This document shows, piece by piece, positions 1-14,888 of a stretch of 64,000 bases of DNA (within the stretch, counting starts at the first letter, position 1; each line of letters begins with the position of its first letter). Made by a program: the position numbers and the translations under genes. Under the pieces are notes generated by a model. The model had not been told where the DNA came from and did no database searches. It worked only from the letters and a program-made list of their open reading frames with translations. The stretch spans positions 1,116,001 to 1,180,000 of the forward strand of contig NZ_CP155729.1 of assembly GCF_039724765.1 (NCBI RefSeq), read 5' to 3'. The stretch is from Sagittula stellata E-37 (GTDB lineage Bacteria; Pseudomonadota; Alphaproteobacteria; Rhodobacterales; Rhodobacteraceae).

Positions 1-599
1 TAGCTTGCATCGAACAGCCGCAGCACGGTGCCCCCATCGCTGGAACGGCAATCGCAACGGCGCGCGGCAGGGGATGGATCGGTGCCGAAAGGCGTTTCCC
101 AATGCAACACATCGGCCTGCGGGACAAAGCCATGCGCGGCCATGCGCATCACGCCGGTTTCATGGTCCGCGCAGTACATCGAGGGGTCGTGACGCGCATC
201 CGGTCCGGCCTTGCTCGACACAACGACCGGTCGGGCGGTGGCATCGAGGAACTCCTTGGCGTGATCGCGGCCGTGGGGGCCAAAGCTGTCGTGATTGCCC
301 GGCAGCGCGAAGAACCGCAGGCCGGGACGCGCCTCCAGCCGCGCCAGCAGGGCCGAGACGCAGCGCGCCTGCCCGTCGTCGCTGTAGTCGCCAAGCAGCA
401 CCACGTCGCGCAGACCCATGGCCTCGATCCGGTCGAGCGCGGCCTCCAGCGCGGCGGCGCTTTCGTTGAATACGCGGGTGGAAGAGCGGGTGTCTGACCA
501 GCTGCGCAGGCTCAGTCCGTCCGGCCCGCGCACGCCGTAATCCGCACCCAGCGGGTGGTAATGCGCGTCGGCGATGATGGCGAAGCGATGCTCGGTCAT
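1..599 (-). CDS. Metallophosphoesterase, C-terminus cut by window edge
   Basis: Calcineurin-like phosphoesterase; only the N-terminal 199 codons are in the window and no stop is reached before base 1. The start is the ATG at 597-599 (reverse strand), 16 bases after the stop of the upstream phosphatase gene. Metal-binding motifs are visible: D11-x-H13 near the N-terminus (IADAHYH), G70-D71, and the GNHD motif at about residues 101-104. Family members hydrolyse phosphomonoesters or phosphodiesters with a two-metal centre. There is no signal peptide, so a cytoplasmic site is likely. It is the last visible gene of an operon with an ABC importer and two other phosphatases, which suggests it processes the imported compound. 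The exact substrate cannot be read from the sequence. Confidence 0.85.
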   Translation of the reverse strand, partial: MTEHRFAIIADAHYHPLGADYGVRGPDGLSLRSWSDTRSSTRVFNESAAALEAALDRIEAMGLRDVVLLGDYSDDGQARCVSALLARLEARPGLRFFALPGNHDSFGPHGRDHAKEFLDATARPVVVSSKAGPDARHDPSMYCADHETGVMRMAAHGFVPQADVLHWETPFGTDPSPAARRCDCRSSDGGTVLRLFDAS

Positions 600-615
600 G
601 GGGTCACGCACGGTG

Positions 616-1242
616 TCATTCACTGCGCGGGGATCCCGCTGCCATCGCCTGCGCCCACGCCGCGGCTTCGCGGGCGGCCTCCAGCAACATCGGCTTGGGG
701 GTCTCGAACCACTCGTCGGGCCGCAGTTGCCGCGCCTCGCGCACATGGGCCACCGCGTCGTCCAGCGTCGGGAACCGCTCGGGTGCCTCGACATGCAGCA
801 GCAGCGATACGAGCGCCACCGACCGGCTGCGCCCGGCGCGGCAGTTGACCAGCACGTTGCCGCCGTCCTTGAACGGGTAAGTGGGGCGGTCGGGCATGGT
901 CTGCCGCAGCGCGCCCTGCAGGATCAGCAATCCCGCCAGCATCATCGCCGACGGGTTGCCGTCGCCGTCGATCATCCCGATCTTGTAATAACGCAGCGCA
1001 CCGTAACCCGCCGCGACCTTGCCGTCGCCGGGATCCATCAGCACCCGATCGACGAGGTCGAAATCGAGGTTCACTGCGCAGTTCACAAGCACGCGGATGT
1101 CATGGGTGCGCAGCAACGCCATGTCGCGCGCACCCTCCATGCCGCCAATGTAAATCGTCGCACCATGCGGGCCGATCCCCTCTGCAATGGGGCTGATAGC
1201 CGGGCGGTCGTATACCGGCGCGCTGCGGTCGTCGTCCTTCAT
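616..1242 (-). CDS. Dual-specificity/tyrosine-phosphatase-type protein
   Basis: A 208-residue protein of the cysteine-based phosphatase superfamily. The P-loop CX5R is clear: C134-RAGRS-R140 followed by S141. It is preceded by Asn where His is usual (VNCRAGRSRS). An upstream Asp-rich segment (IDGDGNP, residues 91-97) could supply the general acid. The start is ATG 1240-1242, two bases after the stop of the ABC ATPase gene, which indicates translational coupling. An in-frame extension further upstream lies inside the ATPase gene and is rejected. Its place in a transporter operon with two other phosphatases argues for a small-molecule phosphoester substrate rather than a signalling protein, but this is inference. 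Confidence 0.85.
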   Translation of the reverse strand: MKDDDRSAPVYDRPAISPIAEGIGPHGATIYIGGMEGARDMALLRTHDIRVLVNCAVNLDFDLVDRVLMDPGDGKVAAGYGALRYYKIGMIDGDGNPSAMMLAGLLILQGALRQTMPDRPTYPFKDGGNVLVNCRAGRSRSVALVSLLLHVEAPERFPTLDDAVAHVREARQLRPDEWFETPKPMLLEAAREAAAWAQAMAAGSPRSE

Positions 1243-1244
1243 GC

Positions 1245-2369
1245 TCACTCCGCCGCGATGCTGGCAGGCGCTTCGGCCCGCTGCAGGATGTTCTCGCCGC
1301 TGGCTGTGTCGAAGACCATGGCGTGCGCCGGGTCGAAATCGAGCCACACCCGGTCCTGGGGCCAGCTTTCGCGGAACTGCGCCACCAGCACCGTGACCCT
1401 CTGGTCGGGCAGGTCGAGGCTGACGATGGTTTGCGAGCCGGTCGGCTGGACCACGTCGATCTGTGCCTCGACCGCGCCATCCTTCGGGGCCGTGTGGATG
1501 CGCAGATGCTCGGGGCGGACCGCGACCCGCACCGCGCCGCCGCCGTAGCCGCCCGCCGCCATCTGGAAGCCTAAGCCCGCGCCCGAGATCCAGAGCCCGC
1601 CGTCGCGCGGCTCGGCCATGGCATCGAAGAGATTGACCTTGGGATCGCCGATGAACTCGGCAACGAAGAGGTTCGCGGGGTGGTGGTAGATCTCGTAAGG
1701 GGTGCCGGCCTGCTGGATACGCCCGTCGTTCATCACCACGATCATGTCGGACATGGTCAACGCCTCGACCTGATCGTGGGTCACGTAGACGGTTGTTGCC
1801 TTCAACTCGCGCGAAAGACGCTTCAGCTCGGCGCGCATCTCGGTGCGCAGCACGGCATCGAGGTTCGACAGCGGTTCGTCCATCAGCAGGACGCCGCTGC
1901 GTGCCGCGATCAGCCGCGCCACGGCGACACGCTGCTGCTGTCCGCCCGACAGTTCGGAGGGGTAGCGGTCCTGCAGCCCTTCGAGCTGCACCTTCTTCAA
2001 CGCCTGCGCCAGCCGCTCGGCGATCTCTGCCTTGGGCATTTTCGCCTGGTGCAGCGCGAGGGTGATGTTGCGCTCGACGGTCATGTTCGGCCAGAGCGCG
2101 TAGCTCTGGAAGATGAAACCGAGCCCGCGTTTTTCCGGCGGGACATTTTCGTGGGTGCGGTCGGAGAACATGCAGCGCCCGGACAGGTGCAGCGCGCCGC
2201 CACTGGGTGTCTCAAGCCCGGCGATGATGCGCAGTGTCGTGGTCTTGCCGCAGCCCGAGGGGCCCAAAAGGGTCACAAACTGGCCCCGCTCGATGTTCAG
2301 GTTCATCTCCGGCAGCGCGAGATAGTTGCCGTAGTATTTCGTGATGCCGTTCAGGCTGACTTCGCTCAT
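1245..2369 (-). CDS. ABC transporter ATP-binding protein (Fe3+/phosphoester type)
   Basis: A 374-residue ATPase of the FbpC/PotA-like branch. Walker A is GPSGCGKT at residues 36-43. The signature LSGGQQQRVAVAR and Walker B LLMDEPLSNLD follow. The C-terminal ~120 residues form the TOBE-like domain typical of the spermidine/iron/maltose subfamily. It should energise the fused permease encoded upstream at 3697-5514. The gene lies 57 bases downstream of the binding-protein gene and is followed almost without gap by the dual-specificity phosphatase. Automated annotation would probably call it ferric iron or 2-aminoethylphosphonate transport; the phosphatase neighbours favour a phosphorylated organic substrate. 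Confidence 0.9.
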   Translation of the reverse strand: MSEVSLNGITKYYGNYLALPEMNLNIERGQFVTLLGPSGCGKTTTLRIIAGLETPSGGALHLSGRCMFSDRTHENVPPEKRGLGFIFQSYALWPNMTVERNITLALHQAKMPKAEIAERLAQALKKVQLEGLQDRYPSELSGGQQQRVAVARLIAARSGVLLMDEPLSNLDAVLRTEMRAELKRLSRELKATTVYVTHDQVEALTMSDMIVVMNDGRIQQAGTPYEIYHHPANLFVAEFIGDPKVNLFDAMAEPRDGGLWISGAGLGFQMAAGGYGGGAVRVAVRPEHLRIHTAPKDGAVEAQIDVVQPTGSQTIVSLDLPDQRVTVLVAQFRESWPQDRVWLDFDPAHAMVFDTASGENILQRAEAPASIAAE

Positions 2370-2426
2370 GGTGTGCTCTCTCTCCCTGGCGCCCGCGCAG
2401 AGGGGGTCCCCGCGCGGGCCGATGGT

Positions 2427-3656
2427 TTACTGGCTGGTCTCGTAGATCCAGAAATCCGCGACCATGGCGACGTTGTCGCGCTGGAAGGCCGGGGTGCCCC
2501 AGAACTTGTTGACCGTGGGCCAGACGTCGGCGCCTGCGGGCGTCGGCACGTCGTCACGCGGCGAGAAGGTGCCGATCTTGAAATACGGACCCATGCCTTC
2601 GAGCAGCGCAAGGTTTTCGCCCTCGCGGAGCGGACCTTCGATCTTGGTATCTGCGGTCAGCTTGTCCGATCCCATCTGGAACGCGACGAACAGCTTGGCC
2701 GCGTTGGGATGCGGCGCCCGCCCGGCAATCGACGTGTAGGTCGAGTAGGCAAAGACACCCGAAGGCTCCACGTCGTAGAGGATGCCGTTCCTGTAACCGT
2801 CGCTGTCGTTTTTGTTGATGTAGTGCATCGACGAGAAGGTGATCGGCGGCGCTTCCTGCCCGGGCAGACCCGAGGCCGCGGCCAGTTTCGAGCCGGAGTT
2901 GTAGATCACGAGGTCGTTGCCGATGAGCCGGTGGAAGAACTCGTAAGCCCCGTTGTCGATCCCGTCGGAGTATTCCAGCGGCTTGCCCGCATGGGCTTCA
3001 TAGGCCTTGGCGAAGGCATCCCCGTGCTCGACCAGGTTGGCGATCAGCGCCAACGTGGTCAGCGAGCCGAGCGGGCTTTTCATGCCGACGCGCTTGTTCC
3101 ATTCGGGTTCGGTCAGTTCCCAGATGTTGGAGATCGGCGGACCGTCCGGGTAGGTCTCGATGTTGTAGAACAGGACCGTCGCCTCGACCATCTGGGTCAG
3201 CAGCGGCTGTTGCAGATCCTCGGGAATGTCATCGGACAGGTAGCGCGGGACGTAGTTGACGATGCTGTCCTGGGGCAGCAGTTCGTAGACCATCTGCGCC
3301 GCACCGCCCGTGGTCACCACGTCGACGTTGTAAAGCCCGGCCTGATGTTCGCGTACCAGCTTTTCGATGGTCTTCTCCGAACCGAGGTCGAAGGCGCTGA
3401 CCTCGATCCCGGGGTAGAGCTTCATGAAGTCTTCGGCGACGGCGCTGATCGACGACGACGACGCGTAGACGGTCAGCGCGCCCTCCTCCAGAGCGGCCTC
3501 CCGGATCGCGTCCCAGTCCTCGGTCTCGGGCTGGTGGTCGCCGAGCTGCGCCCATTCCTTCCAGTCGTCGACGGTCATGTCGCCGGTACTCTGGGCCATG
3601 GCGAGGGCGGGCAAGGCCGCCAGCGTCCCGGCCAGTATCATGGTCTTCATGGTCAT
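2427..3656 (-). CDS. Periplasmic substrate-binding protein of ABC importer
   Basis: A 409-residue extracellular solute-binding protein of the iron/phosphonate/sugar-phosphate type. A Sec signal peptide covers residues 1-21 and ends AMA-QS. The mature N-terminus carries an extra ~25-residue segment (DDWKEWAQLGDHQPE) before the usual first strand (ALTVYASSS). The start at ATG 3654-3656 is supported by an AGGAGG Shine-Dalgarno eight bases upstream; upstream in-frame codons overlap the permease end and are rejected. Ferric-binding relatives use paired C-terminal tyrosines. None is obvious in the usual place here, which fits an organic ligand, but this would need a structural alignment. Confidence 0.88.
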   Translation of the reverse strand: MTMKTMILAGTLAALPALAMAQSTGDMTVDDWKEWAQLGDHQPETEDWDAIREAALEEGALTVYASSSSISAVAEDFMKLYPGIEVSAFDLGSEKTIEKLVREHQAGLYNVDVVTTGGAAQMVYELLPQDSIVNYVPRYLSDDIPEDLQQPLLTQMVEATVLFYNIETYPDGPPISNIWELTEPEWNKRVGMKSPLGSLTTLALIANLVEHGDAFAKAYEAHAGKPLEYSDGIDNGAYEFFHRLIGNDLVIYNSGSKLAAASGLPGQEAPPITFSSMHYINKNDSDGYRNGILYDVEPSGVFAYSTYTSIAGRAPHPNAAKLFVAFQMGSDKLTADTKIEGPLREGENLALLEGMGPYFKIGTFSPRDDVPTPAGADVWPTVNKFWGTPAFQRDNVAMVADFWIYETSQ

Positions 3657-3696
3657 GGTTGGTTCTCCTCCTTGGATGTCGTGGGGCTGCGCCGCG

Positions 3697-5514
3697 TCAG
3701 GCGAAGCCGAGTTTCGCGTTCCGGAAGACAAGCCGGAACAGGATGTTGAAGCCGATGATCAGCAGCACCAGCAGCAGCGTGGCGGCGCCGATCAGCTGCG
3801 GCACGTCATCGGTCTGGTAGGTGTAGATCACGCTCGCCAGCACCGCCGTCGAAGGCGTCACCAGCAGGATGATCAGCGACAGCTCGCGCATGGTGCCGAT
3901 GAAGCTCAGCAGCATCCCCGACATCAGCCCGTTCGAGGCCAGCGGGATCACGATCCGCCGCACCCGTGCCACCCAGCCGATACCCTGCGTGCGCGCGGCC
4001 TCTTCCAGCGACTTGTCGATCTGAAGCAGGGCCGCGATGCCGGTGCGCGAGGTGTAGGGCAGGTTCTTGACCGCCGCGATCAGCACCAGGAGCGCGAAGG
4101 TGCCGTAGAGCGCGGGCATCGGCCCGATGGGCTTCGAGAACATGCCGATGTAGATCGCGCCGAAGGCCACCGAAGGGAAGATGTAGGGCAGGAAGGCCGC
4201 GGTCTCGAGCGTCTTCGACGCCATAGACCCACGGGTCCGCACCACGACGTAGCCGACGAGAAAGCCAAGCACCCCGGTCAGCAGCGCCACGCAAAGCGCC
4301 AGGCGGATCGAATTCCAGGCCGCGCCGAGGATCTGCGGGTTTTGGAACACCCCCGGATAAAGCGCGTTGACCTCGCCCCGCTCACCGAACCAGTAGTGCA
4401 GCGTCAGGTTCGACAGGTCGTAGTCGCCCGCGGTCCGCGACAGTGATTCCAGCAGCAGCAGGCCGATGGGCAGGATCACCGTGAAGGCGAGCAACAGCAC
4501 CACAAGCCCCAGCACCAGCCAGCGCGCAGGGCCAAGGTCGATGGTCTTCGACCGCACGCCCTTGCCCGACATGGTCACAAAGCTCTTGCGGACGCCGATC
4601 ATGCGCTGGTTGATCCAGATGAACAGCACCGCCATCACCACAAGCACCAGTGCCAGCAGGTAACCGTCACCCACATTGCGGGAACCGATGGCGGCGTAGA
4701 TCTGCGTCGGCAGGGTAAAGTAGCGCACCGGCATCCCCAGCACCGCCGGGGTCCCGAACGAGCCCACAACGCGGATGAACGTCATGACAACCGCCGAACC
4801 CAGCGCCGGCAGCACCAGCGGCAGGGTGATGGCGGTGAACTGGCGAAAGCGCGACAGGCCCGCGATGGCGCCGGCCTCTTCAAGCTGGCTGTCCACGGTG
4901 GTCAGCGCGCCCGAGAGGATCAGGTAGGCGTAGACGTAGTAATGAAACGCAAGGCAGATGACGATGGGCAGGGCGCCAAAGGCCAGCCAGTCCGGCGGCT
5001 GCATACCGAACAGGTAGACGAACACGCCCGACGATCCGCCCAGTCGGTCGTTCTTGAAGAACGTCAGCCAGGCCAGCGCCATCACCCACGACGGCAGCAT
5101 GTAGGGCACGACGATCATCGTGTTCACTGCCTCGCGGAACGGCACGTTGGTGCGCACCACCACCCAGGCCAGCGATGCGCCCAGGGTCAGGCACAAGACC
5201 GTCGCGCCGAAAGCGGTGATCAGAGAGTTGACGAAAGGCTTGTAGAACAGCGCAGCGGACATCCGCCCCGAAAACACCCTCTCGTAATGGAAGGTGGTGA
5301 AACTGCCGGCCTCCTCGCCGGGCAGATAGGCCCTGTCATAGGGCTGGACGGTGAACGTCTCGCGGATCAGCTCGGCCAGCGGTGCCAGCACGAGGAACGC
5401 CAGCAGCACCGCCAGCACCACGGCGACCAGACGTTCCGGTGTCATCATGGCGGCCCCGAAGCGGCGCAGGCGCCCGGCTCCGGCACGCGCCGTCATCTCT
5501 CCTGTAAGTGCCAT
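3697..5514 (-). CDS. Fused two-module ABC transporter permease
   Basis: A 605-residue inner-membrane permease containing two BPD_transp_1 modules in one chain, as in FbpB/ThiP-type proteins, with about twelve membrane segments. Both cytoplasmic EAA loops are recognisable: EEAGAIAGLSRFRQ in the first half and EEAARTQGIGWVARVRR in the second. These are the docking sites for the ATPase encoded at 1245-2369. The gene sits between the inositol-monophosphatase-like gene (36-base gap) and the binding-protein gene (40-base gap) in the same operon. The ATG at 5512-5514 gives the expected short cytoplasmic N-terminus ahead of the first membrane segment. Confidence 0.9.
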   Translation of the reverse strand: MALTGEMTARAGAGRLRRFGAAMMTPERLVAVVLAVLLAFLVLAPLAELIRETFTVQPYDRAYLPGEEAGSFTTFHYERVFSGRMSAALFYKPFVNSLITAFGATVLCLTLGASLAWVVVRTNVPFREAVNTMIVVPYMLPSWVMALAWLTFFKNDRLGGSSGVFVYLFGMQPPDWLAFGALPIVICLAFHYYVYAYLILSGALTTVDSQLEEAGAIAGLSRFRQFTAITLPLVLPALGSAVVMTFIRVVGSFGTPAVLGMPVRYFTLPTQIYAAIGSRNVGDGYLLALVLVVMAVLFIWINQRMIGVRKSFVTMSGKGVRSKTIDLGPARWLVLGLVVLLLAFTVILPIGLLLLESLSRTAGDYDLSNLTLHYWFGERGEVNALYPGVFQNPQILGAAWNSIRLALCVALLTGVLGFLVGYVVVRTRGSMASKTLETAAFLPYIFPSVAFGAIYIGMFSKPIGPMPALYGTFALLVLIAAVKNLPYTSRTGIAALLQIDKSLEEAARTQGIGWVARVRRIVIPLASNGLMSGMLLSFIGTMRELSLIILLVTPSTAVLASVIYTYQTDDVPQLIGAATLLLVLLIIGFNILFRLVFRNAKLGFA

Positions 5515-5550
5515 GTGTCCTCCCTTGCACGGCGAAGTGTCTTGCGGTCG

Positions 5551-6369
5551 TCAGGCGCGAATGGCCTGTTTCGGCGCGTCGATCAGCGCGGTGCGGCTGT
5601 CGAGGCTCAGTGCCTCGGCGATGCCCGGCGCCGCCGCCAGGATCCGTCCGCCCGTCCGCAGGTCGCCGGTCGACAGGAAGGGGCAGACCGCGCCCCCGGC
5701 CTCGGAGACCAGCAGCAGGCCCGGGATGCAGTCCCATGAGTTCATGTGCAGCTCGACGTACGCATCGGACCGGCCATCGGCGACCTGCGCCAGCGCGAGC
5801 GCGCCAGAGCCGCAGCGCCGCACATTGAAGCCGCGTTCCAGCAGCGCGGTCATCACCTCCAGGTACTCTTGCCGTGGCACCCGCGTCGACCAGCCCATCT
5901 CGACCGTGGAAGATTGCGGATCGTTCGCCGCCGAGACGTGCAGCGCCGTGCCGTTCAGCGTTGCGCCATGGCCCGCGCGGGCAAGGTAGATCTCGTCGCT
6001 GACCGGGTTGTAGATCCCGCCGAGCACCGGCCGCCGTCCCTCGACATAGCCGATCGAAATACAGAAGTGTTCAAGCCCGCGTGCGAAATTGGCGGTGCCG
6101 TCGATGGGGTCGACGATCCAGCACCGCTCTCCGATCTCGCCGCCGTCCTCTTCGCCGAACACGCTGTCGCCGGGGAAGCGCGACAGGATCGCCTCGCGAA
6201 TGTGGCGCTCCGAAGCGGCATCGGTCTCGGTCAGGTAATCCTGCGGGCCCTTCATCTCCCAGCTCGCCGAGGTCCGCTCCTCGAAGCCACGCTTCACGAT
6301 CCGGCCGGCAGACCGCAGGACCTCCTCAAGGAACGCCGCGCGCTCCTGCACGGCTTCATTGCTCTTCAT
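5551..6369 (-). CDS. Inositol monophosphatase family protein
   Basis: A 272-residue Mg2+-dependent sugar/inositol phosphatase. Family motifs are intact: GEE at 72-74, DPIDGTANF at 87-95, and the C-terminal WD at 212-213 followed by GLLLVSEAGG. The family removes phosphate from inositol 1-phosphate, histidinol phosphate, PAP or sugar phosphates. The start is ATG 6367-6369, preceded by a GAGGA Shine-Dalgarno; an upstream ATG at 6420 would add 17 residues containing the palindromic operator and is rejected. It is the first gene of the operon that continues into the ABC importer, so it probably dephosphorylates the imported compound. The specific substrate is unknown. Confidence 0.9.
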   Translation of the reverse strand: MKSNEAVQERAAFLEEVLRSAGRIVKRGFEERTSASWEMKGPQDYLTETDAASERHIREAILSRFPGDSVFGEEDGGEIGERCWIVDPIDGTANFARGLEHFCISIGYVEGRRPVLGGIYNPVSDEIYLARAGHGATLNGTALHVSAANDPQSSTVEMGWSTRVPRQEYLEVMTALLERGFNVRRCGSGALALAQVADGRSDAYVELHMNSWDCIPGLLLVSEAGGAVCPFLSTGDLRTGGRILAAAPGIAEALSLDSRTALIDAPKQAIRA

Positions 6370-6438: not shown

Positions 6439-7169
6439 GAAACAGCGGAGGCGCCCATTCAGTCCCCTGAAAAATATGGCGTAAATCCGAAGGCACGGTG
6501 TTTCTTGTCCCCGGTTACGTCATCGTTCGTGCAACCATGCTTGGCTGAAACGACCAAACGCTGTGGCGCCACCCACGCCTGATGTGCCAGTGCGATTCCC
6601 ATGTTTTCCGAATATTCTAACGGACTTTCTCCGCTTCCCGACATTCAGGAGTCAGTCCAAGGCGTTCGGATCCCCAAGCGGGGATTGATCTTTTTGCACA
6701 CGTGCACAGTGCAAAATCCATCTCGAAGCAAATGCGCACGGCCCCGCCTGCGCGCCCGATCTTGTCGTTCTGTCCGGCAATCCGTCACGGGCACGCACAT
6801 TGCCACGCCCGAAACGCAGCCCACTTCCCACGAAGCCGCTTTGCGCTGCCCCCGTCTTCCACCCGTTTGCGTCCAGCGCGGCCGAGAGGGAGCGTCCGCC
6901 GCCTGCACGTGGTGCGTCAGTCACCCGGGAAACCGTTCGCAATCGGCGCAGCCGATCCGGTCGGCACCTTGTCATGTGTTCGAAACGCGACCGCCACACG
7001 GCGACCGTGCACCGCCATCGCCAGGCCGTCAGAGCCTGGTCGCCATCGCGCCAAAGGTCCGGGCAAAGGCCGCAAGCCCTCCGCCAGGCCCGGGCACGTC
7101 CCCTCCGGGGCGTACCCCGGTCGCACGGACGTCTGGCCTACGCGGCGAGGGCTGGCGCGGCCTGTGTTG
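6439..7169. other. Gene-free stretch upstream of the phosphoester operon
   Basis: About 730 bases hold no reading frame I can support. Overlapping frames of 60-220 codons exist on both strands, but none has a convincing Shine-Dalgarno, recognisable motif or consistent codon bias. The stretch is less GC-rich near 6440-6720 and contains one strong inverted repeat, listed separately. It may hold a long regulatory region or the remains of deleted genes. Confidence 0.5.
6692..6716. promoter_or_regulatory. 25-bp inverted repeat, possible operator
   Basis: TTTTGCAC and GTGCAAAA form perfect 8-base arms around a 9-base centre (ACGTGCACA), about 320 bases upstream of the operon start at 6369. The TGCAC...GTGCA arms recall NtrC-type enhancer sites, but the spacing is two bases longer than the usual one. 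There is no T-tract, so a terminator is unlikely. The regulator is unknown. Confidence 0.4.
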
Positions 7170-8141
7170 TCATCCCCATTGCCAGAGGGCAGGGACGAAG
7201 CGGTATTCGTCGCCCTCCTTCATCACGTGGCCCACGCCGGGGAAGGGGAAGTGGTAGCCCAGCACCGCCATCCGGTCGGTGGCCGCCATGTCGAGAAGCT
7301 TCTGCCGGGTCTCCACCGTCAGGTCGCCGTTCATGTCGAAGTTGTTGTACCACCCGGGGCGGGCAAAGTTCATGTAGGCGTGGGTCATGGCATCGCCGAG
7401 CGCGATCAGCTGCTTGCCGCCGGATTCCACCACGACCGACATGTGGCCGGGGGTATGGCCCGGCGTGTCGATCACGCGCACGCCGGGAACGATTTCGTCC
7501 TCGTGGTTGACCAGTTTCCATTCCGCGCCATCCACTCTGATCGAGTTGACCGCCCCGACGGCGAATTGCTGAAGGTCCTGCGGCATGCGCGTGGCCAGCC
7601 CGTCCTGCATCCAGAACTCGTGCTCTGCCGTGCCGATGAAAAGCGCCGCGTCGGGCAGGATGGCCTCGTCGAAGTCGTCGCGGATGCCCCAGATATGGTC
7701 CGGGTGTGCGTGGGTTATGACGACGTGTGTGATGGTGTCGGGTGCGATGCCCGCCTCTGACAGATTGCCCATCAGCTCTCCGGCGGTGGGCACGAAACGG
7801 TCGCCCGAGCCCACGTCGACCAGCACCACGGCATCGCCGATCTCGATCACAAGGTGATTGGTGTGGGAATAGTTGATTTCCGGCGACAGGAAGTAGCTTT
7901 CGAGGAAGGCCTTCACGTCTTCCGGGTCGGCGTTCACGCCCAGCCCGCTGGCCGGGACCTCAAGCCGCCCGTCCGAGACGACGGTCAGCTTCGCCTCGCC
8001 GAGGGTAAAGCTGAAGTGCTGCGGATTGCCGGATGCCGGGGCGCCCAGCGACTGCGCGCGGCCAACCGCAGGCAGGGTCAGCGCCGGGGCGCTGGCGGCC
8101 ATGGCCAGGATCTCACGGCGGGTGGGGCGGATGATGGACAC
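7170..8141 (-). CDS. Tat-exported MBL-fold metallo-hydrolase
   Basis: A 323-residue metallo-beta-lactamase-fold hydrolase. The zinc motif HxHxDH is at H144-A-H146-P-D148-H149; a later His in DTPGHTPGH, the Asp in GDAMTHA and the C-terminal His in GYHFPFPGVGH complete the usual ligand set. The N-terminus TRREILAMAASAPALTLPAVGRA looks like a Tat signal (RR at 8-9, then hydrophobic core and an A-x-A-like site), so the folded enzyme is probably exported to the periplasm. Relatives include organophosphate hydrolases, lactonases and quorum-quenching enzymes; the sequence alone does not choose among them. It is a single gene transcribed away from the pseudogene at 8350. Confidence 0.85.
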   Translation of the reverse strand: MSIIRPTRREILAMAASAPALTLPAVGRAQSLGAPASGNPQHFSFTLGEAKLTVVSDGRLEVPASGLGVNADPEDVKAFLESYFLSPEINYSHTNHLVIEIGDAVVLVDVGSGDRFVPTAGELMGNLSEAGIAPDTITHVVITHAHPDHIWGIRDDFDEAILPDAALFIGTAEHEFWMQDGLATRMPQDLQQFAVGAVNSIRVDGAEWKLVNHEDEIVPGVRVIDTPGHTPGHMSVVVESGGKQLIALGDAMTHAYMNFARPGWYNNFDMNGDLTVETRQKLLDMAATDRMAVLGYHFPFPGVGHVMKEGDEYRFVPALWQWG

Positions 8142-8349
8142 GGGCGGACCTCCCTATCATGCATGTCTTCGAATGTCAGAATAGCATCGGCACCGGCGAT
8201 TGCCACCGCGATCCGGCTTCCGGGAAACGACGGCGACAATCCCCGGGTGCTGTCATATTCGGACGTTCAGACAATGGGTTGCGGCCCGACGCTTGGAGGG
8301 GATCGCCGGCGGGCCGATTGCACCCCCGTGGCCATCCTGGACCTTTGAC

Positions 8350-9084
8350 ATGCCGCTGCGCTGCAGCATGCCACGGGAAGGGGGCCCGATCACCCGGTGC
8401 TGGCTGACTGCCGCATGCGCTCTCACCCTCGCCATAGACGCTGCCGCGCAGGAGGTGACGTTCCGCTTCCAGCACGTTGTCTCGCCGCACTCGGCCATCC
8501 CGAAGCACGTCATCGACCCCTGGGCCGGGAAGATCGAAAAGGAGACGGACGGCCGCATCGAGGTCGAGATCTATCCGTTCATGCAGCTCGGCGGCACCGC
8601 GCCGGAACAGTATGACCCGATCGTGGACGGGGCGATCGACGGCGGCTCGGTGATCCCCGGCTGACAGGCGGGCCGCTTCCCCGAGGCGATGTCAAACGGC
8701 GTGCTCGACGGTGGCGCCTTCACCTGAAAGATGTCGCCCTCGCTGACAGTCGACGAGGTGACCGGCAGCCACACCGACGCGGCAGGCGACAAGTCGCTCC
8801 ACAACCTTTTCTTCATCCCGGGCAGGAACAAGCATGCCTACGACAGCCTGCCCGACGACCTGAAGGCGGTGATCGACCCCACCTCTGGGCCGGAGACCGC
8901 CGCCCGGGAGGTTCGCACCCGTGACACCGGCGCCGCCGAAGGCCGCGCCGTGATGGAGGCCTAGGGCAACCGGATTTCCACACTCTCAAAGGGCGAAACC
9001 GCCAGCATCAAGCCGCTTGAGGGCGAGGTAATCGACGCATGGATCGCCGACAGGGACGCCAGGGGCTCCCCGGCCGGCAACTGA
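8350..9084 (+). pseudogene. Decayed TRAP transporter binding protein (DctP type)
   Basis: One continuous reading frame shows a signal peptide-like start (ALTLAIDAAAQEVTFRFQH) and TRAP solute-binding protein blocks, but is broken by TGA at 8662, TGA at 8725 and TAG at 8962. By comparison with the family, two stops fall where Trp is plausible (GAFT-W-KMSPSL and the G-x-QAGRF position) and one where Gln is expected (EA-Q-GNRI). Each is then a single C:G to T:A change. About 100 residues that normally lie between the GRFP block and the EAMSNGVLDGG block are missing near 8683. No DctM/DctQ genes remain nearby. It is a relic, not a functional receptor. Confidence 0.85.
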
Positions 9085-9163
9085 CGGATGAGGCCCGCGC
9101 CATGCTGGCAGGCGCCGCGGCCAGCGGAAACGGAACCGCCGCGCTCCGCTGCACCCCTTGGGT

Positions 9164-9216
9164 TTCTTTGCTTCGGAAATACTCCGGAGGGGGTCCGGGG
9201 GAGGCAGCGCCTCCCC
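9164..9216. repeat. Partial copy of dispersed palindromic repeat (family A variant)
   Basis: The stretch CTTTGCTTCGGAAATACTCC followed by GGAGGGGG, a CCGGGGG run and GGCAGCGCCTCCCC resembles one arm of the larger repeats at 23082-23215 and 59401-59531 (an AAATAC-CTCGGGGG core, then a GC palindrome). It sits between the TRAP pseudogene and the end of rsmD. The similarity is by eye and the partner arm is absent. Confidence 0.45.
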
Positions 9217-9269
9217 TGTCTGCGCGGGCAGGGCCCGCGCGGATCGTCCCGGCGCCAGCCGGGGCGACA

Positions 9270-9824
9270 TCACCGGGAGCGCAGCACCGTGACATGCGTG
9301 TCGCCGTATCTCCGCGCCTCCAGGGCCGCATAGCCCTCGGGCGCCACCTGGGGGGCGCTCTCTTCCCAGACGATCAGCGCCTCCGCCCCGATCCAGCCCT
9401 GTGTCCGCGCCACCTCCAGTGCCCGCGCGCCCAGACCCTTGCCGTAGGGCGGGTCGAGGAACACCAGCGAGCAGGGCGCACCCGCGGGCAGCCGTGTCGC
9501 ATCCGCGCCGATGACCGACGCGCGGTCCGAGCAGTCCAGCGTCTTCACGTTCTCGCGGATCAGCCGCTGCCCGACCCGGCCGTTCTCCACGAAAGTGGCG
9601 GAAAGGGCGCCGCGCGACAGCGCCTCCAGTCCCAGCGCACCGGTGCCGGCGAAGAGGTCCAGCACCACCGCGCCCTCGAAGGGATCGCCGAAGCGCCCGC
9701 CCGCCAGCATGTTGAACAGCGATTCGCGCACGCGGTCGGTCGTGGGGCGCAGATGCGCGCCCGGATCGCCCTTGCCCACGGACGCCAGCCGCCGGCCGCG
9801 CCACTCGCCCGCAATGATCCTCAC
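9270..9824 (-). CDS. rsmD: 16S rRNA (guanine(966)-N(2))-methyltransferase
   Basis: A 184-residue RsmD. The SAM-binding motif DLFAGTGALGLEALSRGA and the catalytic DPPY (FLDPPYGKG) are present. The N-terminal MRIIAGEWRGRRL block is characteristic of the family; here it begins VRIIAGEWRGRRL. The start is the GTG at 9822-9824, overlapping the TGA of the upstream flavoprotein gene (GTGA), so the two are translationally coupled. RsmD methylates G966 of 16S rRNA in the assembled 30S subunit. Longer open extension upstream overlaps the flavoprotein gene in another frame and is not coding. Confidence 0.93.
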   Translation of the reverse strand: MRIIAGEWRGRRLASVGKGDPGAHLRPTTDRVRESLFNMLAGGRFGDPFEGAVVLDLFAGTGALGLEALSRGALSATFVENGRVGQRLIRENVKTLDCSDRASVIGADATRLPAGAPCSLVFLDPPYGKGLGARALEVARTQGWIGAEALIVWEESAPQVAPEGYAALEARRYGDTHVTVLRSR

Positions 9825-11026
9825 GCCTTCAGCAGTGCCTTGAGCTGCGTTTCCGGGTCGGCCACCGCCTCCGGATCGGCGGTCTTGCCGCCCTCGATCA
9901 GCCGCTTGCCGACCATGTAGGCCTTCGGGTCGTTCATCGCGTCGACCGCCAGCAGCCTGCCGTCCTCGTAGTACCAGTGCGACAGGGCATCGCCGTCCTT
10001 GCGGACCACCACCCGGTCGTAGCCGGTGTTCAGCCCGGCGATCTGCAGCTTGACGTCGTACTGGTCGGACCAGAACCACGGTTTCGGCACATAGGCCTTC
10101 GCGGCGCCCATGATGTTCTCGGCCACCAGTTCGCCCATGTCGATGGCGTTGCCCACCGATTCCAGCCGGATGCGTCCTTCGCCATGCGGGAAGGACGCGC
10201 AGTCGCCCGCCGCCCAGATCGACGGGTCCGAGGTGCGGCCGTGGCTGTCCACCGCGATACCGTTCAGCACCTCCAGCCCGCAGGCTTCCGCCAGTTCGGA
10301 CGCGGGCGCGATGCCGACGCCGACGATCACCATGTCGACCTCGATCGTGGTCCCGTCCGCCAGTTCGGCACCGGTGACATGGCCGTCGCCCAGAAGGCGC
10401 ACCAGCCCGGTGCCTTCGCGCAGGTCGACCCCATGGCCCTTGTGCAGGTCGCGGAACCAGGCAGAGGTCTCGGGCGCGGCCACCCGTTGCAGGATCCGCT
10501 CCGCCGCCTCGACCAGCGTGACCGTCAGGCCCAGCTTGGCGCAGACCGCCGCCGCCTCCAGCCCGATGTAACCGCCGCCGACAACCAGCACCCGCTTGCC
10601 CGACACGCAGGAGGGGCACATCGCATCCACGTCCGCCAGCGTCCGCACCACGTAGACACCGTCCAGCGCACCGCCGATGGAGCCGGGCAACCTGCGCGGG
10701 ACCGAGCCTGTGCACAGCACCAGCTCGTCGTATTTCACCGCGCGTCCACCGGCCATGACTTCCTTGTTGTCGCGGTCCACGGCGATCACCTTTTCGCCCA
10801 CGTGCAGGTCGATGGCGTTTTCGGCGTAATAGGCCGCGGGCCGAAGGTAGAGCCGCTCTTCCTCCATCTCGCCCATGAGGTAGGCCTTCGACAGGGGCGG
10901 GCGCTGGTAGGGCGGCACCGGCTCCTCGCCGATCAGGGTAATGGTCCCCTCGAACCCCTTGGAACGCAGCTTCGCCACCAGCGAGGCCGCCGCCTGTCCT
11001 CCCCCAACAACAACGACGTCCGTCAT
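9821..11026 (-). CDS. Ferredoxin/rubredoxin reductase-like FAD oxidoreductase
   Basis: A 401-residue pyridine-nucleotide disulphide-type flavoprotein of the ferredoxin-NAD(+) reductase class used with class I P450s and ring-hydroxylating oxygenases. The FAD-binding motif VVGGGQAAASLVAKLR begins at residue 5, the second Rossmann motif VVGGGYIGLEAA marks NAD(P)H binding, and AAGDCASFP is the second FAD motif. There is no redox-active CxxxxC. The start at ATG 11024-11026 gives the canonical MTDVVVVGGGQA N-terminus; further upstream codons run into the promoter region of the divergent peroxiredoxin. Its ferredoxin or oxygenase partner is not in the window. Confidence 0.88.
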   Translation of the reverse strand: MTDVVVVGGGQAAASLVAKLRSKGFEGTITLIGEEPVPPYQRPPLSKAYLMGEMEEERLYLRPAAYYAENAIDLHVGEKVIAVDRDNKEVMAGGRAVKYDELVLCTGSVPRRLPGSIGGALDGVYVVRTLADVDAMCPSCVSGKRVLVVGGGYIGLEAAAVCAKLGLTVTLVEAAERILQRVAAPETSAWFRDLHKGHGVDLREGTGLVRLLGDGHVTGAELADGTTIEVDMVIVGVGIAPASELAEACGLEVLNGIAVDSHGRTSDPSIWAAGDCASFPHGEGRIRLESVGNAIDMGELVAENIMGAAKAYVPKPWFWSDQYDVKLQIAGLNTGYDRVVVRKDGDALSHWYYEDGRLLAVDAMNDPKAYMVGKRLIEGGKTADPEAVADPETQLKALLKA

Positions 11027-11107
11027 GGTCCGAGCTCCCTTTTCTCTTGTAGGCGCGACACTATCCTTGCGACACAGGGAAACGCAATTCCACGGAGGAC
11101 AGGACAA

Positions 11108-11596
11108 ATGGCGATTTCACCCGGTGACACGCTGCCGGAGGCAACTTTGTTGCGCATCGGCGCAGACGGCCCCGAGACGGTTGACCTCTCAGAGCTGGCC
11201 AAGGGGCGCAAGCTGCTCATCTTCGCGCTGCCGGGGGCCTTTACCGGCACCTGCACAAACGCCCATGTGCCCAGCTTCATCAAGACGAAGGATGCCTTCG
11301 CCGAAAAGGGCGTGGACGAGATCGTCTGCATCGCCGTCAACGATCCCTTCGTGATGGATTCCTGGAGCCGCCACACCGGTGGAGACAAGGCGGGCATCAC
11401 CTTCCTCGCCGATCCGGATGCCGCTTTCACCAAGGCGATGGGGATGAACTTCACCGCGCCGCCAGTGGGGTTCTACGACCGCTCCAAGCGCTACGCGATG
11501 GTGGTCGAGGACGGCACCGTCAAGGGGCTGAACCTGGATGACAACCCGGGCGTCTGCGAGAAGTCCTGCGGCGAGGCGATGCTGGAACTCGCCTGA
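11108..11596 (+). CDS. Peroxiredoxin, Prx5 type
   Basis: A 162-residue thioredoxin-fold peroxidase of the Prx5/AhpE-like class. The active-site motif is P42-GAF-T46-GT-C49, with C49 as the peroxidatic cysteine. It reduces H2O2 and organic peroxides in the cytoplasm. Two extra cysteines near the C-terminus (C150 and C154 in GVCEKSCGEAM) could act as resolving residues. The start is ATG 11108, preceded by a GGAGGACAGGACAA stretch that supplies the Shine-Dalgarno. It is transcribed divergently from the FAD reductase, with 81 bases between the two starts. Confidence 0.92.
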   Translation: MAISPGDTLPEATLLRIGADGPETVDLSELAKGRKLLIFALPGAFTGTCTNAHVPSFIKTKDAFAEKGVDEIVCIAVNDPFVMDSWSRHTGGDKAGITFLADPDAAFTKAMGMNFTAPPVGFYDRSKRYAMVVEDGTVKGLNLDDNPGVCEKSCGEAMLELA

Positions 11597-11981
11597 ACGA
11601 CCGGCGGCGTCCTGTCCTGATCCGGTCTGACCGGGCCTGACGGGCGCCGCCATATCCTGCCACGCGGCGGTTCCGTGCGCGATGGCAGCCCGTCTGCGCC
11701 CGCGCAGGACAGCCTCGGCACGGGCGCGCGCCTCCCGGCTACATCCCGATATATCCCTTCGGCCCGCTAGCGGACGCTTTCCCGGCACCGATTCCCTGCG
11801 GGCAAAATCCGTCGCGCGGCATTCCGCCGATCCGGATGGATCGCGGCACTGGCGTGTTTTCTTCGGGAAATAGTGGGTTCTGCGGGCCTTTCCGGGACGG
11901 GCCGGACCGAAAAGCTTGCCAGCTTCAATGCCGTCGGCCAACATCGGCCAATAACATTAATTTGAAGTTGGGAGCTGCCAT
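11597..11981. other. Intergenic region between peroxiredoxin and haloperoxidase-like gene
   Basis: About 385 bases hold no supported gene. Just after the peroxiredoxin stop, GGCGGCG (near 11605) and CGCCGCC (near 11645) enclose a nested GGTC-T-GACC palindrome, which could fold into a terminator-like structure but lacks a T-run. The last ~70 bases become AT-rich and probably contain the promoter of the gene at 11982. Confidence 0.5.
11934..11950 (+). promoter_or_regulatory. Direct repeat upstream of haloperoxidase-like gene
   Basis: TCGGCCA occurs at 11934-11940 and again at 11944-11950, exactly ten bases (one helical turn) apart, followed by AT-rich sequence and a GGGAG Shine-Dalgarno before the ATG at 11982. 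The spacing suggests tandem binding of an activator on one DNA face. No regulator is identified. Confidence 0.3.
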
Positions 11982-13370
11982 ATGACCGACTCGCAAGTGA
12001 TTACGAATTTCAGCAGACGCGCCGCACTGGGTTTATTGACCACAGCCGCAGTTGTCGCCGCCACACCGAAGGCCTTTGCCGGACAAGGTTGCGGCTCCGG
12101 CGCGTCCTACATCGAAGGTGTCGTGTCTCCGGGCAATATGACCCCGGTGATGTGGTGGTCCGACCAACTTGTGCAAAAAGTGCGTGACACCGCCACCCCG
12201 CCGCCGCCGGCCACCCGCGCCTTCGCTATCGGCCACCTCGCGGGTTTCGTCGCGGTCAACGGCCTCGCCCCGCGTTATGCAGGGCCGGTGAAGTTGCCCG
12301 AACCGCCGATGCCGGTGAATGCGGACATCGCCTACGGCACTGCCGTCGCCACCGCGATCAACGCGCTTTTCGGCTGGGACAACTGCGAACTGATGGCGTT
12401 CCTCGACGGGTTCGAGGACGGGGAGGCCAAGAACAACGCCATCGTCTGGGGCGCCAACGCGGCCCATGCCGTGCTCGACTGGCGCGGCGAGGACGGGATC
12501 GGCGGCTCGAAGGAGCTGCTCTACACCAAGCTCGACGGCCCGATGGCCTGGCAGCCGACCGGCCCGTTCTTCGGCGCCCAGAACGGCCCGACCTTCAAGC
12601 AATACGGCGGGCCGCTGCTGCCCGGTTGGGGCAGGATGAAGACCTTCGCGGTCGGCTCTGCCCGCGACTTCCGTCCGGCGCCCTTCCCGCGTCAGGACAG
12701 CAAGGAGTTCATGCGCCAACTCGAAAAGGTCTTCCAGTGGGGCGGCGCGACCAGCGATTTCCGCACCGAGGACCAGGCCGAAATCGCCTTCTTCTGGGAA
12801 GACGGCCCGCGCGGCGCGACCCCGCCGGGGCACTGGCAGATCATCGCCATGGACCTGCTGCAACGGCAGGACTTGGACCTCGTCGACCAGGCGCGGTTCA
12901 TGGCGCTCATCAGCATGGCGCAGGCCGATGCGGCCATCGTGACGTGGGATTGCAAGTTCGACATGGACGTGGTGCGCCCCGAAACGGCGATCCGCACCAC
13001 GGTCCTGCCGCAGGACAAGTTCGCGCGGTTCCATGACGCCGAGTGGAAGACGCTGATCCCGACGCCGCCGTTCCCGGCCTATACCTCGGGGCATTCGACG
13101 TTCAGCGGTGCCTCGGCACGGATGCTGGCGCATCTGCTGGGCACCGACAACGTGTCCTTCACCGGTGGTGCCCCGGATCTGGTGAACTGGCCGAAGCAGC
13201 TGACCGGCGTGCGGCGGTCGTGGACGCGACTCAGCCAGGCGGCGGAAGAGGCGGGCGCGAGCCGGGAATACGGCGGCATCCACTGGGAGGCCGACAACAC
13301 CGAAGGTCTGCGCATCGGCGGGCTGATCGCCGACACTGTCTTTGACACCTCCCTGCCGCGCCTGGGCTGA
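11982..13370 (+). CDS. Tat-exported vanadium haloperoxidase/PAP2-type protein
   Basis: A 462-residue protein of the vanadium-dependent haloperoxidase / PAP2 phosphatase superfamily. The three active-site blocks are present: KFDMDVVRP (K325, R332), the Y-T-S-G-H block (S369, G370, H371), and SREYGGIH (R428, H434). The N-terminus NFSRRAALGLLTTAAVVAATPKAFA is a Tat signal (RR at 12-13, AFA cleavage site), so the protein is exported folded. Family members oxidise halides with H2O2 or hydrolyse phosphate esters; the extended length and spacing resemble bacterial vanadium-haloperoxidase-like proteins more than short PAP2 enzymes. Halide specificity cannot be read from sequence. It stands alone and is followed by a terminator. 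Confidence 0.82.
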   Translation: MTDSQVITNFSRRAALGLLTTAAVVAATPKAFAGQGCGSGASYIEGVVSPGNMTPVMWWSDQLVQKVRDTATPPPPATRAFAIGHLAGFVAVNGLAPRYAGPVKLPEPPMPVNADIAYGTAVATAINALFGWDNCELMAFLDGFEDGEAKNNAIVWGANAAHAVLDWRGEDGIGGSKELLYTKLDGPMAWQPTGPFFGAQNGPTFKQYGGPLLPGWGRMKTFAVGSARDFRPAPFPRQDSKEFMRQLEKVFQWGGATSDFRTEDQAEIAFFWEDGPRGATPPGHWQIIAMDLLQRQDLDLVDQARFMALISMAQADAAIVTWDCKFDMDVVRPETAIRTTVLPQDKFARFHDAEWKTLIPTPPFPAYTSGHSTFSGASARMLAHLLGTDNVSFTGGAPDLVNWPKQLTGVRRSWTRLSQAAEEAGASREYGGIHWEADNTEGLRIGGLIADTVFDTSLPRLG

Positions 13371-13390
13371 CACCGCTTCGGGCATCGAAA

Positions 13391-13421
13391 CCCCCGCGGT
13401 CCGCTGCGGGGGTCTTCCTTT
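13391..13421 (+). terminator. Rho-independent terminator of haloperoxidase-like gene
   Basis: CCCCCGC and GCGGGGG form a 7-base stem around an 8-base loop, followed by the T-rich TCTTCCTTT. It begins 20 bases after the stop codon at 13370. Confidence 0.75.
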
Positions 13422-13444
13422 CCCGCCACCCCGAAACAACAGAA

Positions 13445-13466
13445 GGGCGCGCCGCACGGCACGCCC
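13445..13466 (-). terminator. Probable terminator of nucleobase permease gene
   Basis: On the minus strand, GGGCGTGCC and GGCGCGCCC pair (one mismatch) around a GTGC loop, then TTCTGTTGTTT follows. It lies 22 bases downstream of the permease stop at 13488 and abuts the convergent terminator at 13391. Confidence 0.6.
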
Positions 13467-13487
13467 TCCACTTCGTTCCGACAGCGC

Positions 13488-14888
13488 TCAGACGGCCGCC
13501 GTCTCTTCCTCCACCGGCGCCACGGTCTCGACCGGTTTGGAGGTCTCTTCGGTATCCGGGATCACCAGTGACAGAATGATCGCCGACAGGCCCGCCAGCG
13601 TGATCGGCGTGGCGACCACCTGCTTGAGGAAGACCGGCAGGTTCTGCGTGGCATCCGGCACCAGCGTCACACCAAGGCCAAGCCCGAAGGACACCGCCAT
13701 GATGTAGACCTTCTTGCGGTCGATCTCCTGCGTGGCGAGGATGCGGATGCCCGCCACCGCGATGGTCCCGAACAGCACCAGCGTCGCACCGCCCAGCACC
13801 GGCTTGGGGATCAGGAGGAAGATCTGCCCCACCACCGGCAGGAAGCCCAGCACCACCAGAATGCCCGCGATATACAGCCCCACGTGCCGCGAGGCGACGC
13901 CGGTCATCTGGATCACCCCGTTGTTCTGGCTGAAGGTCGTGTTCGGGAAGGTGTTGAACAGTGCCGCGAGGCCGGAGTTCACCCCGTCCGCAAGGATGCC
14001 GCCCTTGATCCGCTTCATGTAGAGCGGCCCCTTCACCGGCTGGCCCGCGATCACGGAGTTCGCCGTCAGGTCGCCCGACGTCTCGATCGCCGTCACGAGG
14101 AAGACGAAGGCGATGGGCAGGAAAAGCCCGATGTCGAAATCCAGCCCGTATTTCAGCGGCTGCGGGATCGCCAGCAGCTCACCCTGACCGGCGCGCGACA
14201 GATCGACCTGGCCCAGGACCATGGCGACGATGGTGCCGACGACCAGCCCGATCATGATCGCCGAAATGCGCAGCATCGGATTGCCTACGAAGGTCAGCAC
14301 AAGGATGACTGCCACGACGATGGCTCCCATCAGCAGGTTCACCGGTGCGCCAAGCGTCTCGCCCGCCTGTGCACCGCCGGCGAAATCGGTGAAGCCCACC
14401 TTGACCAGCGACAGCCCGATCACCGTGATGACGATGCCCGTCACGGTCGGCGTGATGATGCGGTCCAGCTTGTCGACGAACTGGCTCAGCACGATCTCCA
14501 CGAGGCAACCGGCAAGGCAGAGTCCGAAGATCATCGCCAGCATGTCCTCCGGCGTGCCGCCCGCGTTCTTCACCGCAAAGCCCGCCGCCAGCACCGGCCC
14601 GAGAAAGGCAAAGGAAGTGCCCTGCACGCTCAGCAGGCCAGAGCCGACCGGACCGACCCGGTAGCACTGGATGAAGGTCGCCACGCCCGACACGAACAGC
14701 GACATGGCGATGAGGTAGGGGATGTGCTCTCCCAACCCGAGGACGCCGCCGATCACCAGCGTCGGCGTCACGATCCCCACGATGGAGGCGAGGATGTGCT
14801 GCATGGCCGCCAGCGCGGCAGCGGGCGGGGCGGGGGTATCGTCCAGCCCGTAGATCAGGGTTCCCGTGTCGTTCGATGTACTCGTCAT
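13488..14888 (-). CDS. Xanthine/uracil permease (NCS2 family)
   Basis: A 466-residue nucleobase:cation symporter with about 14 membrane segments. The NCS2 signature is present as SQNNGVIQMTG. Members import uracil, xanthine or urate with protons across the inner membrane. The start is ATG 14886-14888 with a GGAGGGACAC Shine-Dalgarno; a longer upstream frame has no membrane character and is rejected. The C-terminal tail after the last segment is acidic (ETSKPVETVAPVEEE). It is monocistronic and has its own convergent terminator. Substrate choice between uracil and purines is not clear from the visible motifs. Confidence 0.9.
   Translation of the reverse strand: MTSTSNDTGTLIYGLDDTPAPPAAALAAMQHILASIVGIVTPTLVIGGVLGLGEHIPYLIAMSLFVSGVATFIQCYRVGPVGSGLLSVQGTSFAFLGPVLAAGFAVKNAGGTPEDMLAMIFGLCLAGCLVEIVLSQFVDKLDRIITPTVTGIVITVIGLSLVKVGFTDFAGGAQAGETLGAPVNLLMGAIVVAVILVLTFVGNPMLRISAIMIGLVVGTIVAMVLGQVDLSRAGQGELLAIPQPLKYGLDFDIGLFLPIAFVFLVTAIETSGDLTANSVIAGQPVKGPLYMKRIKGGILADGVNSGLAALFNTFPNTTFSQNNGVIQMTGVASRHVGLYIAGILVVLGFLPVVGQIFLLIPKPVLGGATLVLFGTIAVAGIRILATQEIDRKKVYIMAVSFGLGLGVTLVPDATQNLPVFLKQVVATPITLAGLSAIILSLVIPDTEETSKPVETVAPVEEETAAV

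Follow-up and report, generated by a model that had tools for sequence, protein, structure and literature searches.

A conserved gene module of Sagittula stellata E-37 and its relatives with a predicted role in inositol phosphate import and dephosphorylation

What does a bacterial importer carry when its genes lie among those of three phosphatases? This question is raised by six minus-strand genes at the start of a 64,000-nucleotide stretch of the Sagittula stellata E-37 genome (contig 1, positions 1116001-1180000, of a 5.29-Mb genome; hereafter the window), which encode an FbpABC-type ATP-binding cassette (ABC) importer, a member of the inositol monophosphatase (IMPase) family, a dual-specificity-type phosphatase with a CX5R motif and a calcineurin-like metallophosphoesterase. 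An initial annotation had proposed the uptake and stepwise hydrolysis of a compound that is multiply phosphorylated or a phosphodiester, with inositol phosphates and sugar phosphates as its two examples. The first of these examples is now strongly favoured, because in relatives the module adjoins operons for myo-inositol catabolism (iol) and phytase genes; the second has its counterpart in an AfuABC-type operon that shares the LacI family and the operator of the module but has its own binding protein. In our reading, the co-oriented genes very probably serve the import and the cytoplasmic dephosphorylation of inositol phosphates, likely lower ones (about InsP1 to InsP3, InsP standing for inositol phosphate) supplied by phytases.

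The six genes were confirmed (Table 1; L-numbers are locus labels, L009 being the locus of the window). They are separated by 36, 40, 57, 2 and 16 bases, exactly the range of 2 to 57 bases first given, and Pfam agrees with the family names that all six had received; such short spacing suggests that the genes are co-transcribed. A seventh co-oriented gene, which the initial annotation had missed, lies 14 bases past the calcineurin-like gene and encodes a protein with Na_Pi_cotrans and PhoU domains, and the end of a LacI gene in convergent orientation abuts it. The catalytic motifs are intact in all three phosphatases, as had been stated, but the calcineurin-like gene extends beyond the start of the window, so that its full motif set is visible only in the genome.

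The assignment of the transporter to the FbpABC type holds, as it combines a fused two-domain permease, a MalK-like ATPase and a binding protein (P0003) of the FbpA/AfuA fold, which scores 25.3 bits with SBP_bac_1, just under the Pfam cut-off of 26. The consecutive tyrosine pair that serves as Fe3+ ligand in FbpABC systems is absent from P0003; in the printed alignment of 29 binding proteins, inspected by eye, five rows contain YY, in differing columns, so that the Fe3+-type ligands that would have contradicted the initial proposal are conserved nowhere. Phosphonate import of the PhnSTU2 type was considered as well and ruled out, since NCBIfam scores are far under the cut-offs (179.5 bits versus 593 for the permease PhnU2 and 348.5 versus 457.7 for the ATPase) and the binding protein has no match. 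By eye, a signal peptide is present on the binding protein and on none of the IMPase, the CX5R phosphatase and the calcineurin-like enzyme, and hydrolysis would therefore take place in the cytoplasm.

The gene set is kept in relatives, whose taxon names are taken here mostly from the titles of their sequence records or from plasmid records. One pattern-based scan of genome contigs with the binding protein yielded 38 loci, on each of which the eight proteins were mapped. Importer and IMPase genes occur together in 29 of them; 27 represent the module, and the other two (L046 and L052) contain none of the remaining genes. Among the 27 module loci, the CX5R phosphatase is encoded in 26, LacI in 26, the calcineurin-like enzyme in 19 and the Na/Pi-PhoU protein in 17. 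LacI is missing from L048, which ends at a contig edge, and the CX5R gene, found in 26 of the 29 loci, is missing from L027 (contig edge), L046 and L052. Twelve module loci, several of them near-identical, have binding proteins 62-90% identical and belong to Rhodobacteraceae and Rhizobiaceae; eight more distant ones with a calcineurin-like gene come from Devosia, Pelagibacterium, Wenxinia and others, and seven without it from Vreelandella/Halomonas (six) and Falsirhodobacter (one). Of the other 9 of the 38 loci, six hold nothing but importer genes (L030-L034, L043) and three match weakly and in part (L054-L056). These gene counts show that the linkage between phosphatases and transporter exceeds what is expected by chance, the opposite of the unlinked arrangement in relatives that would have spoken against the initial proposal.

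The module is rare. With E up to 1e-30, homologues of the CX5R phosphatase were detected in 4 of 385 class genomes, 6 of 398 phylum genomes (own genome in both) and 1 of 369 genomes of the class of genome G809; for the calcineurin-like protein, the count is 8 of 295 family genomes, own included. An Fbp-type importer adjoins the CX5R gene in all eight other genomes from the class and phylum scans (8 of 9 gene copies). The CX5R gene is also present on 85 plasmid records of PLSDB, and all ten regions inspected (L120-L129, two of them from Sinorhizobium meliloti) hold an importer in the same cluster. On pSymB of the model symbiont S. meliloti 1021 (158000-186000, L129), a region for which the PLSDB table gives no features, homologues of the whole module are found: the four importer genes (permease, ATPase and two binding proteins), the IMPase, CX5R and calcineurin-like genes, Na/Pi and LacI, together with a second IMPase and a second CX5R gene. 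In S. meliloti ABS7 (L120), the matches to three of these genes (Na/Pi, LacI and one for a binding protein) are spread over several frames. On pR132504 of R. leguminosarum WSM1325 (L123), IMPase and CX5R genes accompany AfuABC-like genes, a HAD phosphatase, LacI, two NUDIX hydrolases, which we assume could act on diphosphoinositol phosphates, and a YvcK-family gene. Metagenome-assembled genomes of Chloroflexota/Leptolinea (L031, L034) contain importers of this class with permeases 43-49% identical, in two copies in L031; the mapped stretch is without phosphatases.

The neighbourhood of the module points to its substrate. In Alloyangia pacifica (L019), the closest relative, with eight proteins 81-95% identical to those of the window's locus, iolG, an iolC-aldolase gene, iolD, iolE and iolB are divergent from the module, two operator sites lie in the shared intergenic region, and the iolB, E, D, C and G products all score above NCBIfam cut-offs. 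As in Alloyangia, a complete iol operon is also present in Devosia sp. Root635 (L035/L103), divergent from the module with a phytase gene in between, and in Pelagibacterium lacus (L049/L100), where it follows the calcineurin-like gene. In Wenxinia marina (L036/L101) it is located about 18 kb from the Na/Pi gene on the same 289-kb contig, and a second CX5R gene, a solitary one, adjoins iolG-B-E-D-C in G809 (L079). In a separate stretch without module genes (L150, G467:C2:364000-383500), a beta-propeller phytase match lies about 1.7 kb behind iolB of an iolCDEB operon.

Phytases are the second neighbour. Of the 36 module or variant genomes, 6 encode a beta-propeller phytase (PF02333), as do 9 of the 190 class genomes. 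In four of the six the phytase gene, confirmed by Pfam in each case, adjoins the module: in two Devosia loci (L035, L051), in L036, where the copy is shortened, and in L081. The last of these is from a genome of the window's family, and its phytase gene is divergent from the permease gene with one small gene between them. On a Klebsiella plasmid, the importer is preceded by genes for a KdgM-type porin and a histidine-type phosphatase whose nearest solved relative is the 3-phytase 2wnh (8e-82), with an AppA equivalog score of 241.7, under the cut-off of 585. This AppA-like phosphatase is found in all four Klebsiella plasmid records with most of the block, all of which cover it whole; megablast returned no match in 20,395 E. 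coli records. In Vreelandella, PF00328 matches stand directly behind the LacI gene by coordinates (L039, L041, L042, L045, L053), and an open frame of the same cluster follows LacI in L039, L041, L042, L047 and L053 (uncalled in L045), with a porin-like gene, by eye, behind it. The single one of these proteins that was compared, from L039, has multiple inositol polyphosphate phosphatases (MINPP) as its best solved relatives (2.5e-39). Three types of phytase with two folds have thus been recruited next to the same importer.

The IMPase scores 199.9 bits with Inositol_P (cut-off 27), carries the motifs GEED, DPIDGT and WD and has inositol-1-monophosphatases/SuhB as its best solved relatives; with the inositol-1-monophosphatase equivalog NF008027 it reaches 146 bits, below the cut-off of 332. 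The IMPase is fused to the CX5R phosphatase in Klebsiella (P0014) and Erwinia; this fusion is an annotated coding sequence in L122 and suggests that the two enzymes catalyse consecutive steps. The CX5R phosphatase falls below the Pfam cut-off for DSPc (25.4 versus 33.5 bits); it has a CX5R P-loop and a putative general-acid aspartate, and its nearest solved relative by profile is VHR/DUSP3. Its P-loop, NCRAGRSRS, has asparagine before the cysteine, where histidine is usual, and the CX5R residues and Asp92, a general acid by position only, are invariant in 25 of 25 rows. The C-R-x-G-R-S-R sequence with its extra basic residues resembles the P-loop of PTEN, but with VHR as the nearest solved relative this is no more than a hint. 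In the calcineurin-like enzyme, the motifs DAH, GDYSD, GNHD, SHYP and SGHLH are present, and the positions that serve as metal ligands in this family are invariant in 23 of 23 rows (L016 and L017 duplicate L036 and L038); diesters, cyclic phosphates and monoesters are all possible substrates of this enzyme. The Na/Pi-PhoU protein is of the YjbB type (Na_Pi_cotrans 128.6 bits, PhoU 69.3 bits). It fits the set because cytoplasmic hydrolysis of a phosphate-rich carbon source would free excess phosphate, provided that it exports phosphate, a direction that we carry over from E. coli YjbB.

Regulation appears to be shared as well. A palindrome was noticed in the promoters of several loci, and the pattern TTGnAC-N4-GTnCAA, with at most one mismatch, was then counted in 36 given loci. 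Of 71 sites, 60 fall inside promoter intervals, which cover 18,016 of 740,952 bases (2.4%), and 32 loci have one; this enrichment is descriptive, as the intervals were set after the motif had been seen in some of the same loci, which are partly related. The four loci without a promoter site are L036, L038, L050, whose best site (6929) falls within the longest permease frame but ahead of the part that shows similarity, and L082; a perfect site in L021 (7214) is just outside its interval and was counted as elsewhere. Among the loci omitted from the count, L025, L042, L047, L120 and L123 have a site near the operon and L048, L076-L078, L127 and L128 have none in a promoter; L079 and the duplicates L016 and L017 were also left out. 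The two predicted operators of the window (Table 1) were scored with a weight matrix from which L009, L010, L019 and L020 had been left out. Support for this motif comes from its position and its conservation only.

Table 1. Genes and predicted operators of the module at the start of the window and directly outside it
Feature	Position	Strand	Evidence and remarks
IMPase (inositol-monophosphatase family, 272 aa)	5551..6369	-	First gene of the set; Inositol_P 7.4e-59
Fused two-domain ABC permease, FbpB/AfuB/PhnU2 type (605 aa)	3697..5514	-	BPD_transp_1, two stretches, 2e-28
Periplasmic solute-binding protein P0003 (409 aa)	2427..3656	-	SBP_bac_1 2e-5; signal peptide by eye; MctA/AfuA/FbpA fold
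ABC transporter ATPase with TOBE domain (374 aa)	1245..2369	-	ABC_tran 4.7e-33, TOBE_2 2e-12
Dual-specificity-type CX5R phosphatase (208 aa)	616..1242	-	P-loop NCRAGRSRS; DSPc 1.3e-5; VHR/DUSP3 profile match 1e-9
Calcineurin-like metallophosphoesterase P0006 (522 aa)	1..599, continuing beyond window; L009:9031-10599	-	Metallophos 3.6e-9
Na/Pi-cotransporter-PhoU gene (seventh co-oriented, outside window)	L009:7349-9016	-	Na_Pi_cotrans 2e-37, PhoU 4e-19
Convergent LacI gene (outside window)	L009:6314-7348	+	LacI 5e-10
Predicted LacI-type operator TTGCACACGCGATCAA	6413..6428	.	44-59 bases before IMPase start codon; best-scoring position of 19 kb
Second predicted operator TTGCACACGTGCACAG	6694..6709	.	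About 325 bases upstream of IMPase start codon; second-best of 19 kb

Past the LacI gene, outside the window (L009:57-5944), genes that by eye resemble those of SMP-30, an alpha-hydroxyacid dehydrogenase, an amidohydrolase and a TctA/TctC-type tricarboxylate transporter were observed.

These components can be arranged into a working model. Phytate would be cut outside the cell or in the periplasm by a phytase, which some relatives would provide themselves and others would owe to a neighbour, and InsP3 are the end products of beta-propeller phytases. The binding protein and the ABC importer would then carry lower inositol phosphates into the cytoplasm, where the CX5R phosphatase and the metallophosphoesterase would strip phosphates or hydrolyse a cyclic phosphate or a diester, and the IMPase would take off the last one. 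Free inositol would enter the iol pathway, and the Na/Pi-PhoU protein would discharge the surplus phosphate. Both this operon and a second one, which is of the AfuABC type and has its own IMPase, would be controlled by a LacI repressor whose inducer is presumably inositol or one of its phosphates. We lean, with moderate confidence, towards a wider interpretation, in which the module would be part of a so far undescribed route to phytate carbon: inositol polyphosphates that have lost part of their phosphates would be imported intact and stripped inside by CX5R phosphatase, metallophosphoesterase and IMPase, and phosphate would be actively discharged. A single LacI regulon would cover the phytase of the periplasm, a porin, both importers, the phosphatases of the cytoplasm and the iol pathway, and the route would be carried by plasmids in rhizobia, in marine bacteria and in enterobacteria.

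Genome-wide, IolE scores above its cut-off in 29 of the 36 module or variant genomes as compared to 23 of 190 in the class sample (Fisher 4e-16), a test that ignores kinship and uses a class background not matched for family. That background is one of several points that weigh against the proposed function. IolE above cut-off is absent from 7 of the 36 genomes, namely Vreelandella/Halomonas L039, L041, L042, L047 and L053, Falsirhodobacter L050 and the metagenome-assembled genome L048; there, inositol phosphates may be a phosphate source only, or the inositol may be otherwise used, and for the five Vreelandella/Halomonas genomes the lack is partly answered by the phytase-like genes that sit there. 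In 17 of 20 iol regions inspected (one per genome, own included) no module gene adjoins, and the IolE gene of the window's genome (C1:1338648-1339511) is neither beside the module nor equipped with an operator. The same genome contains no phytase of the two families searched, PF02333 and PF00328. In fold, binders of citrate, of hexose phosphate and of iron are all equally near to the binding protein. The calcineurin-like gene occurs without CX5R, IMPase or this importer within 19.5 kb in four of seven other family genomes (L085-L088), and in L078, L082-L084, L127 and L128 it is replaced by a metallo-beta-lactamase (MBL)-fold enzyme, in stretches without IMPase. Finally, a stricter operator pattern does not stand out by count across the S. 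stellata genome, with seven places versus seven for the reversed control; the seven include the site at L010 and exclude both window sites, which have two mismatches to the pattern, and two of the other six that were inspected (L064, L065) look like chance matches.

The MBL variants have an order of their own, exemplified by L084:3881-14332 with ATPase, binding protein, permease, MBL-fold hydrolase and CX5R phosphatase, and mostly include LacI. In L083 and L084, a perfect operator is present, and Gfo/Idh, mannonate-dehydratase-like and mannitol-dehydrogenase-like genes (labels by eye) follow.

Among the alternatives, import of glycerophosphoinositol or another lipid-derived inositol phosphodiester fares best, with the calcineurin-like (or MBL-fold) enzyme cutting the diester and the IMPase freeing inositol. 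The sole solved-structure match of the calcineurin-like enzyme is Lmo2642 (3.9e-19 with profile), a phosphodiesterase, and both the MBL-fold replacement in another lineage and the lack of the two phytase families in the window's genome are in line with this idea. It is nevertheless unlikely, because the dedicated esterase beside the module is a phytase wherever one is present (neighbourhoods were not searched systematically for lipases or GDPD) and the metallophosphoesterase was not found in the mapped stretches of Vreelandella, Klebsiella and Erwinia. As both involve an inositol phosphate ester, this alternative overlaps with the function preferred here, and their odds need not sum to one. 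In S. stellata itself, the ester could come from other organisms or be such a lipid-derived phosphodiester, since its genome is without the two phytase families and its iol genes are unlinked.

An AfuABC-like importer of hexose or heptose phosphates, with phosphatases freeing the sugar, is less likely still. LacI regulators usually respond to sugars, and elsewhere in the same genome (L010) the operator motif lies between an AfuABC-type operon, which includes an IMPase of its own, and a LacI gene whose product is 60% identical to that of the module. Such an operon also adjoins the module in L019, L020, L040 and L049, and L021 retains a fragment of its binding protein only. The binding protein encoded in L010 has a match to AfuA (3e-91), and the AfuA residues His205, Asp206 and Glu229 named in PMC4546632 have identical counterparts in it; these motifs are found in five of five proteins checked, L010 included. 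However, a sequence search with the module's own binding protein does not find an AfuA chain, the adjacent iol operons and phytases indicate inositol, and a single IMPase would be enough for a sugar monophosphate. The AfuABC-type operon under this LacI is followed on the opposite strand by a Ugp-like ABC transporter, the HAD phosphatase P0012 and PhnE-like genes (Ugp and PhnE by eye), and the two groups together span L010:2241-7404 and 7415-14493 (own genome C1:1447001-1462000).

Import of ferric iron or a metal citrate, with phosphatases linked for some other reason, is suggested by the nearest solved binding protein, the Mg-citrate binder MctA, and by record annotations reading 'iron ABC transporter permease', but is hardly credible, as P0003 has no tyrosine pair, none is conserved, and iron uptake would not need phosphatases, a phosphate transporter, iol genes or phytases. 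The ligand may, however, be a complex of a metal with an inositol phosphate.

Every part of the module comes from a known family, and its combination and putative function were not found in print in the open-access literature; within this scope, which leaves most subscription papers and all bioRxiv preprints outside, no bacterial inositol-phosphate importer was found described either. If the function is confirmed, proteins annotated as 'iron ABC transporter permease' and 'dual specificity protein phosphatase' would be renamed. The closest described importer, AfuABC, transports hexose- and heptose-6-phosphates according to PMC4546632. In contrast to it, the module has a different binding protein, three phosphatases, a Na/Pi-PhoU gene and LacI, and it adjoins phytases and iol genes in relatives. 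The agrocinopine acc operon is similar in its logic, as a phosphodiester is imported and then processed by a cytoplasmic phosphodiesterase and an IMPase-family phosphatase, but it uses another transporter class and is not known to include a CX5R enzyme or a phosphate exporter.

In soil and in seeds, phytate accounts for a major share of organic phosphorus. Phytases (PF02333; AppA-like and MINPP-like PF00328), which are encoded beside the module in several lineages and would share its substrate class, act outside the cytoplasm and in bacteria often stop at lower inositol phosphates, whereas the module would import their products and complete dephosphorylation inside. A dedicated importer would account for bacterial use of the carbon ring in phytase products. 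The iol operons, adjacent in three genomes, would constitute the downstream pathway; those known take up free inositol, whereas the module would take up phosphorylated inositol and, if this holds true, close the gap between phytases and inositol catabolism.

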